This document shows positions 42,824 through 48,815 of a stretch of DNA of 64,000 bases, in pieces. Source of the stretch: Shewanella putrefaciens. Its GTDB lineage: Bacteria > Pseudomonadota > Gammaproteobacteria > Enterobacterales > Shewanellaceae. Numbering within the stretch: position 1 is the stretch's first letter; the number at the start of each line of letters is the position of its first letter. The notes under the pieces are model-generated. The model was not told where the DNA came from. It saw only the letters and a list, made by a program, of their open reading frames with translations, and did no database searches. Both the position numbers and the translations under genes were made by a program. The stretch covers positions 3,428,501 through 3,492,500 of the forward strand of contig NZ_CP066369.1 in the NCBI RefSeq assembly GCF_016406305.1, read 5' to 3'.

Positions 42824-44281
42824 CTACTTTTTATCGGAACGAAGCACTAACTCCACTCTGCGATTCAATTTTTGTCCAGCGTCATTCGTGTTGCTGGCGA
42901 TTGGGCTGTATTCACCGTTACCGTGGGCAGTTAATTGTGCTGACGGAATTTGAAACCCGTCACTCAACTGCTTAATCACAGCTGCAGCGCGACGCTCCGA
43001 CAGGCTTTGATTATAACTCCGCTCACCCTTGTCATCGGTATGTCCGACCACATAGAAACTCAGTGTCGGATTCTGCTTAAGATAGCTCGCGAGTACATCG
43101 AGTACAGACTTGGACTCGGGCAACATGCGCTCACTGTCGTAATCAAAAAGCAAACCTTCCAACGTCACTTTGCCTGTTTGGCTAATAGCATCGGTCAAGG
43201 CATCGAGGTCAATCGCAACACGATCATCCTTCAGAACGGAGAGTTCCATTACTCTGACAGTAGTGTCGGATGGGGTGCCATTGGAATACCCCTGTGAGTA
43301 GATATCAAAATACACCTCGCCCTGTGGGTGGCTGAGTTTAAACAACTGATACTCTTGCCCCTCGTCATCTTGATCATCTTTAAATAATCCCATGGTTTTT
43401 ATCAGGCTATCTTCGTCGCCGCAGGCAATGCCTTTACAATGGAACACCCGCTCTGCTGCCAGCTTTTGTGCGGCTGCGGCATAATTGCTGTTGATTTCAA
43501 ACAGGGAATAGCTTTCAGGCATGCGGTAGATTATCTGGGTGAGTTTGGCATCCAGCAACTTGGTCTGGTAGTCAGCTCCGGCAATGCCCACAATCACAGG
43601 CACCTGCGTAAAATTGGTTTGCTTATAGTGAGCAATGTAACTGCCAGGCATACGCCCCAACAAAGGATGATCAGCCGATCCTTGGGTATCCTCACTGCGT
43701 TTGTCTTTAATCTCAATCTCTTTTTGGACCTGTTGCAAAAAGCTGCTGTTTGCCTGAATCAAGTTTAGCGGCTCGGGAATCGCTTCAAGGGTATCGACCT
43801 GCAAATAGGTGTACCGGCCCTCACGGTTGACGGCATAGATACTGCTGTAAACATCACCACCAGCGCCTTCCATTTTTGCCGCCACGTAAGCACTGTGATA
43901 GTCGGCATTCACGCTTTTAAGTGGCTTTAGCTGAGTTTGCATGGCTTGGCCATCACCACAGGTGGCGGCCTGACAGCTAAATAACACTTCAGCATTCAGT
44001 TTTTTTAGCTGAGCCAAATAGTTATTGATCACATGTTCAGGACTATACCCCTCTGGTAACTCAACGCTTTGTCGAGTCAATTTCCCCGACACAGTTAAAA
44101 GAGTGAACTTGTCACCATTCACTGCGGTAATGAGCTCAAAGGGCGTAAAGTGGATGTGCTTTTCTTCAGGCGATTTGGAGTCTGGGAAGGGAGCAAACAG
44201 CGATTCAGCATTCACCGCAAAAGTGACGACACCGCAAGTCGCGGTCAAAAATACAGCACTCAATAACGTCTTATGTCCCAT
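42824..44281 (-). CDS. OmpA-like peptidoglycan-binding protein with duplicated N-terminal domain
   Basis: A 485-residue envelope protein with a signal peptide (about 1-25), two related central domains, and a C-terminal OmpA-like peptidoglycan-binding domain (VVGHTDDKGERSYNQSLSER, catalysing no reaction but anchoring to the wall). The two central domains each contain a P-E-x-Y-S start and a cysteine pair: FSCQAATCGDG and FHCKGIACGDE, about 195 residues apart. This layout resembles DUF4892-OmpA proteins. ATG with AAAGGA six bases upstream. Function is structural at best guess. Confidence 0.8.
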   Translation of the reverse strand: MGHKTLLSAVFLTATCGVVTFAVNAESLFAPFPDSKSPEEKHIHFTPFELITAVNGDKFTLLTVSGKLTRQSVELPEGYSPEHVINNYLAQLKKLNAEVLFSCQAATCGDGQAMQTQLKPLKSVNADYHSAYVAAKMEGAGGDVYSSIYAVNREGRYTYLQVDTLEAIPEPLNLIQANSSFLQQVQKEIEIKDKRSEDTQGSADHPLLGRMPGSYIAHYKQTNFTQVPVIVGIAGADYQTKLLDAKLTQIIYRMPESYSLFEINSNYAAAAQKLAAERVFHCKGIACGDEDSLIKTMGLFKDDQDDEGQEYQLFKLSHPQGEVYFDIYSQGYSNGTPSDTTVRVMELSVLKDDRVAIDLDALTDAISQTGKVTLEGLLFDYDSERMLPESKSVLDVLASYLKQNPTLSFYVVGHTDDKGERSYNQSLSERRAAAVIKQLSDGFQIPSAQLTAHGNGEYSPIASNTNDAGQKLNRRVELVLRSDKK

Positions 44282-44768
44282 AAAAAATCCTTTTCTGTGG
44301 GGAATCTAGCTCTCGCGAACCAACTAGATAGATAAAGAAATAGTGATGGGATGATACGATAAAAATTTTTACCTAGGTATTAAACGGCATAAAAGTCATA
44401 CTTTTTATTGAAAAGGAAATACAGAGACAGAAATAAATAGAGAAATATAGAGATACCCATTTTTAAATAGCGTGGTAGCCCTCCGACAAGGAGGTTTATA
44501 TGCCACATCCTTGCAGAACTCAGATAAGCCTTGAACTATCTCTTTAAATTAGTCCCTAATACCACTTTTTGACTCTGATGTAGTCCTCCTACTTTTGTCG
44601 CCTCATATTCAAGCCATTTTATCCAGAGCGTGTTGTTGGCAAATCGAAAGTGCATTATGTTGGTGATTAAAAATGAGTGGCAAGTTTTTATTACTGGTCT
44701 AACGTGATAAACACGCATACGCACTAATAAATGTTATCCATCTTTAGTTCGACGAGATACGAAATTAT
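44282..44768. other. A+T-rich intergenic region, nothing firm
   Basis: About 490 bases at the left edge of the FRG patch. Only short hairpins were seen, such as CCTCC-GACAA-GGAGG near 44478. No gene, insertion sequence or recombinase was recognised. The base composition is visibly poorer in G+C than in the core genes on either side. Confidence 0.4.
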
Positions 44769-45539
44769 ATGGAACAAAACTGGAATACTTATAAAAACTG
44801 GATAGCTGATGCTACCAAAAACAACAAAAAACTATACTATCGTGGGCAAAGTAACAGCGACTGGAAGCTTGAAACGACTTTTCACCGAAATGCAAAGTTC
44901 AAAAATATCTCACTTCAAGATTACTTTAGCACCATCATAAATGATGTTCATTACCAAGTTGCTGCGTTTGAAGCCCCAATTAACTTTCAAAATAGCGTTG
45001 AATACGGCTCATTTTTAGGAAAGTTACAACATCATGGTTTTCCCACACCCTTGCTTGACTGGACATTGTCAGGTTACGTGGCTGCATATTTTGCATTTAA
45101 AGGCGCTTCTTTGAATACTAAGCCCACAGATAAAGTAACAGTGTTTATATTTGATATCGAGTGTTGGAACAAAGAATTTGGAGCTGATAGTAATTTTCTT
45201 GGAGGGGAAGAATTTGTTAGCAACTTTGTCCCTTATGCAACGGGTAATCAAAGAATGGTGCGACAAATGGGGGTTACTACATCAACTAACGTAGTAGACA
45301 TTGCAGGCTTTATAATGAAGAAGGGAGCAGAAAAGAATCAAACGTTTTTATGGCGTTACGATATGCCCGCGAGTGAACGAAATATCGTTATGCGTGAGCT
45401 CAATTCTATGGGGATCAACGATATGACAATGTTTCCTGACTTTGATGGCTTATGTCAGCATCTTAAAGAAGTGCATTTTACAAGTCAGCAACCAATATTA
45501 CCTCCGCCACCTCCTCTATCTATTAGTACAGAGGCATAA
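44769..45539 (+). CDS. FRG-domain protein
   Basis: A 256-residue protein with an FRG domain: LYYRGQSNSDWKLETTFHR near residue 22 carries the naming motif, and LQHHGFPTPLLDWTLSGYVAAYFAF (two parts, near 87) is the second conserved block. FRG proteins occur sporadically in bacteria and phage-related regions, and their biochemical activity is not established. It ends in a proline run (PILPPPPPL). No signal peptide or membrane helix. Base composition is A+T-rich compared with neighbours, suggesting acquisition. A second short gene follows after 31 bases. Confidence 0.8.
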   Translation: MEQNWNTYKNWIADATKNNKKLYYRGQSNSDWKLETTFHRNAKFKNISLQDYFSTIINDVHYQVAAFEAPINFQNSVEYGSFLGKLQHHGFPTPLLDWTLSGYVAAYFAFKGASLNTKPTDKVTVFIFDIECWNKEFGADSNFLGGEEFVSNFVPYATGNQRMVRQMGVTTSTNVVDIAGFIMKKGAEKNQTFLWRYDMPASERNIVMRELNSMGINDMTMFPDFDGLCQHLKEVHFTSQQPILPPPPPLSISTEA

Positions 45540-45570
45540 AATGTGGCGCTAAATGTCGGAGGGATTCTGA

Positions 45571-45876
45571 GTGATTGCTAAGAAATACTTAGTGGAAAAC
45601 TATGATTGCTTAGAACTCATATCTAAGTACGAAGAAGGCTATTACGATAGACAGTCTTTCTTGCAGTTGGTGGTTCCAATAGCTGAAGTTTCAATTGACA
45701 AGAATCACCACCACTTAGTTATCGGTCATGCTGGCACTGATGGTATCGAATTTTGTTTACGCATCCACAATCAAGGGATATGGGTTTTCTATCCAATAGA
45801 AACTAGGTTTCATAAAGTATCTGATAGTATCAGTCAGCTCATAACTGGGTGGACTAACGGTTCTATCAAAGTGTGA
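45571..45876 (+). CDS. Unknown protein downstream of the FRG gene
   Basis: A 101-residue soluble, slightly acidic protein starting at GTG 45571 with an excellent GGAGGG seven bases upstream. The sequence (MIAKKYLVENYDCLELISKY and NHHHLVIGHAGTDGIEFCLR among its segments) is not one I recognise. It lies 31 bases after the FRG gene in the same A+T-rich patch and is very likely co-transcribed, so it may be a functional partner, for example an immunity or regulatory protein; this is inference from context only. Confidence 0.65.
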   Translation: MIAKKYLVENYDCLELISKYEEGYYDRQSFLQLVVPIAEVSIDKNHHHLVIGHAGTDGIEFCLRIHNQGIWVFYPIETRFHKVSDSISQLITGWTNGSIKV

Positions 45877-46017
45877 GCATTTAACAAACAAAGGCAACAT
45901 CGTCCTGCGGACTAGACTAGTTAACACGCTCCCTGATTTGGGCGTTAATCCATCGAAATTTTCATCCCGAAATTTATGTGTTAGAACCCATGAACTAACT
46001 ATGAGTTGTCCCCAAAC

Positions 46018-46076
46018 ATGCTACGTTTGTCTTTAAAACTTACTGACTACGCCAATGCTAGAAAGGTGAGCCATGG
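46018..46076 (+). repeat. Diverged direct repeat, copy A
   Basis: About 60 bases that can be aligned with 46271-46327 at roughly two thirds identity. Both copies open with ATG and, read as protein, share MLR-five residues-T-x-YAN-x-x-KVS. The shared end AAAGGTGAGC is the best conserved part. Copy A is followed directly by the GC-rich hairpin. Confidence 0.6.
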
Positions 46077-46089
46077 TGATTTTGCGAGA

Positions 46090-46119
46090 CGACCGTCCGC
46101 CCCATGGACGGGGCGGTCG
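46090..46119. repeat. REP-like GC-rich hairpin
   Basis: Outer stem CGACCG/CGGTCG with two competing inner stems, CCGTCC/GGACGG or CGCCCC/GGGGCG. Together with the neighbouring CATCC-AA-GGATG hairpin it looks like a genome-dispersed REP element; copy number cannot be checked here. Confidence 0.55.
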
Positions 46120-46270
46120 AGCATCCAAGGATGGACTTGCTGCGTGTCGACGAGTCAATGCCATGGCGAACCTATATGCGTGGATACCTGCCAATGCTAA
46201 CCCACTAAAAACTCTAACTAAAGATGCAGGTCCTCCGGCACTACTTTCCAACACATTTCAGTCTAAAAAT

Positions 46271-46327
46271 ATGTTGCGTATATATTTTCAATCCACTGGT
46301 TACGCTAATACTAAAAAGGTGAGCTAA
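46271..46327 (+). repeat. Diverged direct repeat, copy B
   Basis: Partner of the repeat at 46018-46076, about 250 bases away. Its reading frame ends at a stop codon right after KVS. Confidence 0.55.
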
Positions 46328-46393
46328 TGCCCTGGCGCGCCTATCACGGCAGCTATCTTAACTGCCGTCAGCCGTCCATTACAGCTACAAAAA

Positions 46394-46420
46394 AGCGATA
46401 AACCCAGTGAGTTTATCGCT
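46394..46420 (-). terminator. Terminator downstream of the S46 peptidase gene
   Basis: Perfect 10-bp stem AGCGATAAAC/GTTTATCGCT with a 7-base loop and TTTTT on the minus strand. A nearer hairpin, GCCGCA/TGCGGC at about 46506-46527, may act first. Confidence 0.75.
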
Positions 46421-46533
46421 ATTTTGCTGTCTTGTTATTTCAGCATTCTTAAAGCACTAAATCGCGCTTGAATGCTGATAATCCAAATTCACTATGCCAT
46501 TATAGGCCGCACCATTGCTGATGCGGCAATGGG

Positions 46534-48690
46534 TTACTTAACGATTTCCATCTCGGCTAATAAATTGTCGGCATGATCTAAATACTTCATTACCCACAAC
46601 ATATAGCGGCTATCGACATGAATAGAACGGTTAATCTCGTTATCAAATGCCCAACCGCCGATAATGCTTTCATACACACCATCGAACAGCAGACCGACGA
46701 GTTCGGCGCGGCCGTTTAAAGTCGGAGAACCTGAGTTACCGCCTGTGGTATCTAAGGTTGATAAAAAGTTTACCGGTACAGAGTCTATTGATTTCATGTA
46801 GAAATCACCGTATTGCTTTTGCTTAATCAGCTCTAACTCTTTCTTCGGCGCATCGAATGGGTCAACCCCCGTGTCCTTTTGCACTATGCCCTCAAGGCGA
46901 GTGAATGGCACGGCCACTAAGCCATCTTTTGGCGAATAGCCTTTCACATGGCCGACAGTAACACGCAGGCTAGAGTTCGCATCGGCGTAAACCGGCTTAC
47001 CTTGCTCTAGGTTGTAGGCAATGATGGCATCCATATACTGTGGGCGCACCTTCATTAGTTCACCCGCTAATTGTTTTTCTTTCTTTTCTTCGGCCATATC
47101 TGTGTCATACATAGCGACGGCGAATTGAATGAAAGGATCTTTAGAGGCTTTAAAATCGGCGACGGATTTATCCATCCATGCCAGACGTACATCTTTGTTA
47201 CCTAATTCAGTGTTGGCGTACATTTTATCTAAGGTTTTCGAAAGCTTAGCTTCGCTAAACTTTTTATCGATCCCAAAAGCTTTATCCAATGCGGGCAGGC
47301 GCTGATCAGCTGGCAATGCCGCGTAGCGTTTTAGCATGTCGAACAACACCGCTTTATCAACGCTTGACGCATAACGACGATCGATACGCTCCATGCTGGC
47401 TTTAAGGCGTGTCATATCTCGCTCTTGGAAGCCCGGTTCACGCTGCATATCTGGCAGTTGCTTCTCGTTCGCTAGGCGATATAAGCTGCGCGCCGTCGGC
47501 AACATAGTCGTGCTACCAATGTAGCTTAGGATCATGTCACGCTCTTGATGCGCTTTAGCTTTAGCAATCAAAGCATCTAATTCGGCTAAGGTTTTGCCGT
47601 ATTTCGCTTCACGGCTGCTGTCTTTGGCGATCCACTCAGCAAGCTTAGCTTCGAGGGCTTTACGGTCTGCCAACATAGTGGATTTGCCGTAAAACTCGAT
47701 CATCGAAGTGAAGTTTTTCGCGTAATTTGCCAGACCCGCAATTTGACTCTCGTACTTAATACGCTCATCACTGCCCTCGGGCGCGGTTTCTTTAATGATT
47801 TCAATAAAGCGCTCACGCAGCATTTTGCCTTCGGGATAAGCCCACTCAAACTCATTTTGAACTTCAGTGGCGGTGCGATATCTGTTGGTGCGACCTGGGT
47901 AGCCTGCAACCATCACAAAATCACCCTCGCTCACACCTTTAGCCGATACTTTTAAGAAGCTCTTTGGCTCATATGGCACGTTATCGCTGCTAAAATCGGC
48001 AGGCTTGCCCGCTTTAGAGACATAGGCGCGATAGAAAGAAAAGTCGCCGGTGTGGCGCGGCCACATCCAGTTATCGATATCGCCGCCGTATTTACCCACG
48101 CTGCCCGCTGGGTTATAGACTAAGCGCACATCGCGGATTTCCAGTTGCTTGACCAGATAATATTCGAGGCCACCATGGAAGCTATACACTTGGCAGCGGT
48201 AACCTTCGTCTTTCTCACATTCCGCCACTAGGGCTTTTTCTTGTGCTTCAATGCCTTGATAGAAATCGCTACCCACTTTACCGTCAAGCCCAGCTTTAAC
48301 GCGCTCGGTCACATTGGTCACATCTTCGGTCACATACACACGAGAGCCCGGTGTCGCTGGCAATTCATCTGCAAAGGTCTTAGCTAAAAAACCATCCTGT
48401 AACAGGTTTTTCTCAGGGGTTGAGTTGTATTGAATCGCCCCATAGGCACAGTGATGGTTAGTCACGACTAGGCCCTTTGGCGATACGAATGATGCGGTAC
48501 AGCCGCCGAGGCTTATTACGGCATTCATGGGGAATTCGGTGAGTTTTGAAATCGATTTAGCATCAATTTCTAACCCTTTAGCCTTTAACTCATCGGCCAT
48601 AGACGGCAGCTGATGTGGCTGCCACATACCTTCGTCAGCCTGAGCGCCAAAGCTGGCGGCCACGGCAACTGCGAGTAACCATTTTTTCAT
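46534..48690 (-). CDS. S46-family dipeptidyl-peptidase (DPP7/DPP11-like)
   Basis: A 718-residue exported serine exopeptidase that releases dipeptides from peptide N-termini. It has a signal peptide (about 1-18), a chymotrypsin-like domain split by a large helical insertion, and a clear triad: His80 in VTNHHCAYG, Asp in the later WMWPRHTGDF region, and the nucleophile Ser in TTGGNSGSPTLNG near residue 640. Whether it prefers acidic (DPP11) or other (DPP7) P1 residues was not determined. The ATG at 48690 begins the signal peptide; an earlier in-frame start would not. Confidence 0.93.
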   Translation of the reverse strand: MKKWLLAVAVAASFGAQADEGMWQPHQLPSMADELKAKGLEIDAKSISKLTEFPMNAVISLGGCTASFVSPKGLVVTNHHCAYGAIQYNSTPEKNLLQDGFLAKTFADELPATPGSRVYVTEDVTNVTERVKAGLDGKVGSDFYQGIEAQEKALVAECEKDEGYRCQVYSFHGGLEYYLVKQLEIRDVRLVYNPAGSVGKYGGDIDNWMWPRHTGDFSFYRAYVSKAGKPADFSSDNVPYEPKSFLKVSAKGVSEGDFVMVAGYPGRTNRYRTATEVQNEFEWAYPEGKMLRERFIEIIKETAPEGSDERIKYESQIAGLANYAKNFTSMIEFYGKSTMLADRKALEAKLAEWIAKDSSREAKYGKTLAELDALIAKAKAHQERDMILSYIGSTTMLPTARSLYRLANEKQLPDMQREPGFQERDMTRLKASMERIDRRYASSVDKAVLFDMLKRYAALPADQRLPALDKAFGIDKKFSEAKLSKTLDKMYANTELGNKDVRLAWMDKSVADFKASKDPFIQFAVAMYDTDMAEEKKEKQLAGELMKVRPQYMDAIIAYNLEQGKPVYADANSSLRVTVGHVKGYSPKDGLVAVPFTRLEGIVQKDTGVDPFDAPKKELELIKQKQYGDFYMKSIDSVPVNFLSTLDTTGGNSGSPTLNGRAELVGLLFDGVYESIIGGWAFDNEINRSIHVDSRYMLWVMKYLDHADNLLAEMEIVK

Positions 48691-48815
48691 TGTGTTAAGT
48701 CCGTTTGATGTGAATAGAGCCATGCGCAAGCTGGGCTATGTTCTTGTTTTAATCGTTAAGCTTGAATAACAGTGCTAAAACCTAGTACCCACTCGCTTTA
48801 AACCCTAAAAAGCAA

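Follow-up and report, generated by a model that had tools for sequence, protein, structure and literature searches.

The A+T-rich patch between the OmpA-domain and S46 peptidase genes of the window (the whole stretch of 64,000 nucleotides of Shewanella putrefaciens DNA that was analysed) is very probably a cassette array in decay, belonging to one of several dispersed copies of an integron-like unit that has its own attI and no integrase gene. The order read in the sequence is a truncated attI, two cassette genes, a decayed attC, a conserved right-hand segment (R65) and a genome-wide repeat. This fits the arrangement of attI, cassettes and R65 without the integrase gene intI, and the left arm found in other copies is not recognisable in the window. 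The initial annotation read the ORFs, the repeats and the base composition of the locus correctly, and missed the integron landmarks at both edges. The features are as follows (coordinates in the window, then the strand, with a dot where none is given).

42824..44281, minus: left neighbour, DUF4892 and OmpA-domain protein (Pfam)
44486..44690, dot: left flank common to genomes G084, G023 and G054, which have different cargo beyond it
44693..44733 (approximate), plus: truncated attI (nhmmer, BLAST)
44769..45539, plus: intact FRG-domain gene, first cassette gene past the crossover (PF08867, PADLOC PDC-S15)
45533..45555, plus: fused cassette boundary, GGCATAA joined to GTGGCGCTAAATG, attC body absent (direct reading against GGGCGTTAAATGCC in loci L005, L003 and L309)
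45553..45570, plus: former start of the second gene, its frame closed by a stop at codon 6; holds the supposed ribosome binding site
45571..45876, plus: ORF of 101 codons, GTG start after the stop (ORF list; alignment to three relatives)
45879..45950, plus: decayed attC, outer motifs ATTTAAC and GTTAATC, hairpin lost
45945..46011, plus: R65, conserved right-hand segment of about 66 nt after the last attC (nhmmer 8e-12)
46012..46330, plus: genome-wide interspersed repeat with a hairpin and two 58-nt direct repeats
46394..46420, dot: terminator-like hairpin, readable on both strands
46534..48729, minus: right neighbour, S46 peptidase, core gene (PF10459, E 4e-271)

The edges of the array

The patch had been placed between two core genes, and this holds for the right side only. 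The S46 peptidase gene is present in 128 of 129 Shewanella genomes, whereas close orthologues of the OmpA/DUF4892 gene (at least 86% identity) were found, among the matches listed, in 10 of the 129 genus genomes, its own included. The low G+C content was confirmed, with 38.5% in the FRG gene and 38.2% in the second ORF, compared with 48.0% in both neighbours and 46.3% in the window. The view of the patch as accessory, with repeats at its flanks, also stands; its content differs between genomes, and a candidate defence gene lies inside it. The host genome measures 4.58 Mb, and an Rfam search of positions 43500-47500 gave no match.

At the left edge, nhmmer matched attI at 44618-44731 (E 7.8e-9); the alignment is convincing in the last ~45 nt only, and the leftward part, from 44618, is weak and doubtful. 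Over about 50 nt, the window attI is 82-88% identical to the attI regions that adjoin intI in three other genomes (G071, G012, G039). The crossover lies between 44733 (G) and 44734 (T), 35 nt upstream of the FRG start, and reads G/TTATCC (the slash marks the crossover) against the rule G/TTRRRY, so that two of the three R positions deviate. No intI gene, as a complete integron would have it, stands beside this attI. A tblastn search with an intI protein gave no match in the 9-kb region around the array, and nothing in the host genome exceeded the TIGR02249 cut-off for integron integrases, the best match (E 9.8e-23) scoring as ordinary tyrosine recombinases do. The same genome has four attI matches.

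A plain insertion of cassettes into an attG site of the ordinary chromosome, with the similarity to attI on the left arising by chance, would explain the short length of the window attI, and the use of attG sites by IntI1 is described in the text of PMC12901181. Against this, the same locus holds a full attI of ~180 nt in genomes G113 and G112, the base at which cassettes begin is the same in 40 attI copies that are full or nearly so, and the right end is again the R65 segment. We consider such an insertion quite improbable and keep to the reading of the left edge as a truncated attI.

The text of PMC12901181 also gives a minimal truncated-attI2 core consensus, AATAAAATGTTRRRY. The attI2 core of class 2 integrons, AATAAAATG/TTRRRY, has the same letters as most copies here, and the window copy is one A shorter, in a comparison of the core with the printed consensus only. 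Positions 44720-44736 of the window and other attI copies nearly match the truncated-attI2 letters. These likenesses hint that class 2 integrons and the Shewanella attI family may be connected.

The right edge has a single attC site, at a locus without integrase, which has kept its outer motifs and lost its hairpin. Its bottom strand folds with -5.9 kcal/mol, against -27.5 and -25.3 kcal/mol for the attC sites that follow relatives of the second gene in L005 and L002. R65 is the left end of the repeat, and it follows an attC, judged by eye, in six further places of the host genome. The diverged direct repeats (46014-46071 and 46267-46324, 72% alike) and the hairpin (46090-46119) noted earlier were confirmed, the hairpin on direct reading, and they belong to a genome-wide family, with 32 matches to 45880-46400 in the host genome. 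This repeat, with its strong hairpin, follows many unrelated genes, and its core also occurs without R65.

Across the genus, R65 came after an attC, by eye, in most of 30 loci; among the exceptions, two (L163, L172) seem to be fortuitous hits within coding DNA, and one (L150) has no clear attC. TAACAA was present 40-165 nt upstream of R65 in 42 of 58 sites, compared with 6 of 121 GCGTTA and 93 of 1857 GTTA control sites, and GC preceded GTTA at R65 in 46 of 58, compared with 157 of 2362 controls. The GTTA at the boundary is partly there by construction, because most R65 loci were chosen by a pattern containing it. The test free of this selection used the 19 R65 matches found by the HMM alone, where GTT stood at the boundary in 14 and TAACAA upstream in 15; four more HMM matches, in which the boundary was uncovered, were omitted. 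A first attC test, by strict pairing of the outer motifs, gave moderate separation only (26 of 58 R65 sites, 149 of 928 controls), and it was a poor test because an insertion gives the last attC a new 3' half. A hairpin score of at least 0.55 was reached by 16 of 58 R65 sites and 5 of 831 controls. The attC counts over 58 sites exclude duplicates or loci in which the pattern was absent (L139, L142, L064, L141, L213, L215), as well as sites with identical upstream sequence.

The FRG gene and the second reading frame

The FRG-domain gene is real. Its product of 256 aa matches PF08867 with E 8.1e-21 (75.2 bits against a family cut-off of 25) and PADLOC PDC-S15 with E 1.3e-46, a profile that marks defence candidates only. 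It has the domain and the conserved residues of other FRG-domain proteins (PF08867; PDC-S15), and R25-G26, Q87-H88-H89-G90 and L95-L96-D97-W98 are invariant in an alignment of three sequences, namely this protein and its two closest relatives in the genus. The relatives (L007 and L008, in genomes G028 and G016) are 35-37% identical and have more than 100 extra N-terminal residues, unlike the short stand-alone form in the window; both genomes are without the second gene. Compared with solved structures, the protein gave nothing better than E 0.46. In the text of PMC9503650, Frg is placed in the ADP-ribosyltransferase superfamily and an NADase activity is suggested. With moderate confidence, we regard FRG as a candidate for defence that needs no partner. 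It would most likely be an anti-phage effector of this superfamily acting by itself, possibly as an NADase.

The FRG gene ends in GGCATAA, a common end of cassette ORFs in the arrays read, and GTGGCGCTAAATG comes three bases later. The latter is the degraded opening of the second cassette, compared here with GGGCGTTAAATGCC in L005, L003 and L309. The attC body is absent between the two genes, which suggests that a deletion fused two cassettes.

The 101-residue ORF is present as annotated, and it had no family above the cut-off in any of four profile libraries (Pfam, PADLOC, NCBIfam and PHROGs). Its product is 63, 52 and 51% identical to three aligned relatives. The claim of an excellent ribosome binding site for this gene did not survive the comparison. 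Relatives of the protein begin with MP[EQ]GIRV, and the same frame opens here at ATG 45553 and stops at codon 6; the supposed binding site is the last base of codon 2 plus codons 3-4 of this older frame. Translation of the ORF may resume at the GTG that follows this stop immediately, or the ORF may be dead. Its protein would be an unrelated passenger, expressed, if at all, by such re-initiation.

Of the 128 other genus genomes, three carry a relative of the second gene (G038, 64%; G069, 53%; G098, 52%). Further relatives lie in a named contig of Shewanella pneumatophori (L002) and, at 63%, in two viral contigs; searches of the plasmid and phage collections gave none. The gene starts straight after GGGCGTTAA in L005, L003 and L309, and after a slightly degraded GGGCATTAA in L002. 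In all four of these loci, CATTTAACAA follows the relative, and in L002 and L005 it is the first part of an attC with a good bottom-strand fold. As the relatives start right after one attC and stop at the next, the second gene is, by its sequence context, a free-standing, independent integron cassette. In one viral contig of 39 kb (L309), the relative is a cassette at one end, with an attC on either side of it, and the second viral contig (L310) gave an equally good match; no integrase gene was recognised among the ORFs read in these two contigs.

The layout of the two genes had been likened to that of a toxin-antitoxin or defence module, which would here be an FRG toxin with a small antitoxin or co-factor. 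Their tight spacing on the same strand, the small size of the second protein and the status of FRG as a PADLOC defence candidate agree with such a module. However, the genes do not co-occur, which is an outcome that the initial annotation had itself named as refuting its idea. No FRG match was found in G038 and G069, and the sole match in G098 is 2.8 Mb from the relative of the second gene. FRG also occurs alone, with 22 plasmid records matching it and none matching the second gene. The second gene, which carries an early stop here, stands in other genomes as a free cassette. The pair was rejected on this co-occurrence across the genus genomes, and a two-gene module is hardly credible. If this assessment is right, neighbours in cassette arrays should not be taken for partners, as was done with the supposed partner gene of FRG.

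A SUKH/SMI1 immunity fold for the second protein, an idea formed by eye, was also dropped, as there was no Pfam SUKH match and hhalign against a SUKH-1 cassette protein gave 0.2% probability. The AlphaFold model of this protein had a pLDDT of 45.7, too low for use.

Taken together, the two cassettes would have had the following history. An IntI acting in trans would have put the FRG and second-gene cassettes into the window attI, and a later deletion would have taken the attC of FRG and fused them. The second gene would then have acquired its early stop and the last attC would have lost its hairpin. With the first attC deleted and this hairpin lost, the array would no longer be self-mobile.

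Units with attI and R65 in Shewanella and beyond

The pattern of the R65 start was found in 42 of 129 genomes, and the backward control gave one match. Sixty regions were chosen by this pattern or by the repeat, some of which overlap (L214/L215) or are near-copies (L208/L213). In 30 of them, the window included, attI (E < 1e-5) was found upstream in the same orientation, in some cases partially, and intI stood beside attI in two (L189, L196). A further region (L198) has a broken intI near R65 and no attI match. Among 25 aligned left ends, 23 were without intI, and most of these share an arm left of attI, at the position of intI.

In DNA searches, attI matched 65 of 129 genomes (E <= 1e-10). 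Of these, 31 have no integron integrase over the family cut-off, which can miss decayed genes, as G076 and G097 hold fragments. At least four attI matches were found in 14 of these 31 genomes and in 13 of the 34 with an integrase; as scoring generally stopped at six candidates per genome, the attI counts are lower bounds, and one genome had up to 27 first-look candidates, six of them scored. We read 40 attI copies from ten integrase-less genomes, and none had intI in the fetched stretch. The next two bases were TT in 39 and CT in one, and the sequences that followed were all different. R65 was seen downstream in 21 of the 40; among the other 19, three stretches were cut by contig ends. Judged from these arrangements, Shewanella is host to a scattered family of putative integron docking sites without a serving enzyme.

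Each site might instead have begun as a complete integron and lost its intI on the spot, with no dispersed unit at all. Units with intI and the same attI and R65 do exist (L189, L196), and a broken intI lies near R65 in L198. However, several copies lie in genomes without any full intI, and the 23 left ends without intI mostly have the same left arm where intI would be; it is unlikely that one and the same deletion arose independently each time. Separate loss at every site is an unlikely origin for the family, though a single deletion with later spread of its product may have taken place.

The dispersed units that we prefer have left arms that start near TGCCCC and R65 segments that stop near TGTCC, and no terminal repeat could be fixed at these ends. 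Neither a transposase nor a target duplication of the units was found. The plasmid flanks gave no clean empty site for target duplication, because they are other islands or transposons. An empty attI-R65 unit was present in none of the 129 genomes, as searched with one strict pattern.

Other arrays of the host genome lie at C1:780400-789000 (L179), 2017100-2025800 (L184) and 3512900-3521700 (L185); the first has attI and a DUF4236 cassette, the second has attI with an array, and the third, read in L114, holds three small cassettes, including a DUF4304 gene.

Beyond Shewanella, a sample of the order gave matches in 21 of 394 genomes, spread over 3 of the 115 genera sampled. The 21 matching plasmid records comprise 13 from Shewanella, 2 from Pseudoalteromonas and 6 enterobacterial ones. 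Five plasmid units (L311-L314, L316) were without intI in the stretch, and three of the five had R65 downstream; a phage copy (L315) carries intI. Two of the five, L311 on a Moellerella plasmid and L314 on an Enterobacter IncC plasmid, are conjugative plasmids with an integrase-less attI and R65 at the array end. Their first cassettes carry predicted resistance genes, one for trimethoprim (dfrA1) and one for fosfomycin (fosG-like). With such first cassettes on two platforms lacking intI, surveys based on intI would miss platforms of this kind.

Scattered cassettes themselves are already known in the genus. According to the text of PMC9229058, CALINs occur in most Shewanella strains, and 115 SALINs were counted in 41 genomes. 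The units here resemble them in having attC cassettes without a nearby intI, scattered over the chromosome. Unlike them, the arrays here keep their own attI, a shared left arm and R65, with many copies per genome, and the word "repeat" is absent from the main text of PMC9229058. What would be new here is that orphan cassettes have their own attI and shared ends. A literature search among open-licence PMC papers gave no description of dispersed integrase-less attI units with a shared left arm and R65.

The chromosomal integrons of Shewanella have the same attI family, 87-88% alike over ~155 nt, and a LexA-box-like sequence beside intI, as seen by eye; the units here differ in having no intI, another sequence at the intI start and several unlinked copies. 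Integrons are usually described as a single platform with its own integrase. In Xanthomonas, arrays that retain attI and have lost the integrase are found at one locus, and MITE-flanked integron mobilisation units are composites with insertion-sequence ends. By their general descriptions, both resemble the units here in having cassettes with the integrase missing or carried separately, and both differ from them in that the units here form a multi-copy family.

Possible exchange of cassettes between sites

Sister genomes show the same site with different cassettes. In four pairs of loci (L206/L209, L207/L225, L212/L224, L272/L277), the flanks and attI are common and the cassettes differ, and each pair diverges at the attI crossover. 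L206/L209 is the locus of the window itself, between the OmpA and S46 genes, with a left flank 93.9% identical over 6701 nt. The shared flank of L207/L225 (95.1% over 7204 nt) reaches the crossover, and the right flank of L272/L277 is 94.5% identical over 7501 nt, with little left flank fetched. L207 and L210 have flanks in common, and the arm itself differs.

One proposal, to which we give an even chance, is a distributed integron in Shewanella and related bacteria, in which many integrase-less attI units with common ends share one exchanged cassette pool. The integrase would act in trans, from a gene of the host or from one brought in by a plasmid or phage; alternatively, the exchange would go by recombination between the arms. 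The units would be docking sites spread over chromosomes and plasmids, conjugative ones included, and cassettes would be exchanged without intI in the unit. Such a multi-site version of the integron, if true, would explain many orphan cassettes of the genus, and integrase-less platforms would offer cassettes many homes and many expression sites. One cassette of 659 nt was found, at 98.6% identity, at two different loci in sister species (G112 and G083).

The same place with different cassettes is expected from an integrase in trans and from recombination between the arms alike. The swaps may have come about by homologous recombination between repeated arms (left arm and attI on one side, R65 and the repeat on the other), with no role for IntI in trans, a route that we hold only tentatively. 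The arms share about 80-98% identity over stretches of ~390 nt or longer, the sister genomes differ by whole arrays and not by single cassettes, megablast showed no cassette of at least 250 nt common to one locus in a sister pair, and the sister genome G112 is without a full intI. However, many attC types are present, and the first cassettes start exactly at the crossover, as an integrase would leave them, while the left junction is predicted alike by both routes.

The interval between the OmpA and S46 genes is a hot spot, and a different ORF set was found there in each fetched relative (G113, G112, G082, G054, G023, G012). The cargo includes a 277-codon ORF in G113, a DUF2971 gene in G023 and an insertion sequence in G012. 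In genome G040, attI and an SMI1/KNR4 cassette lie beside S46. S46 adjoins an rsuA-like gene in G002, with no unit between them, and S. pneumatophori has cassettes beside a similar rsuA-like gene. Finally, L208 and L213, in G112 and G113, are 100% identical over more than 7 kb around the R65 site, compared with 94-95% in the other shared flanks, and an identity so far above the other flanks suggests a recent transfer.
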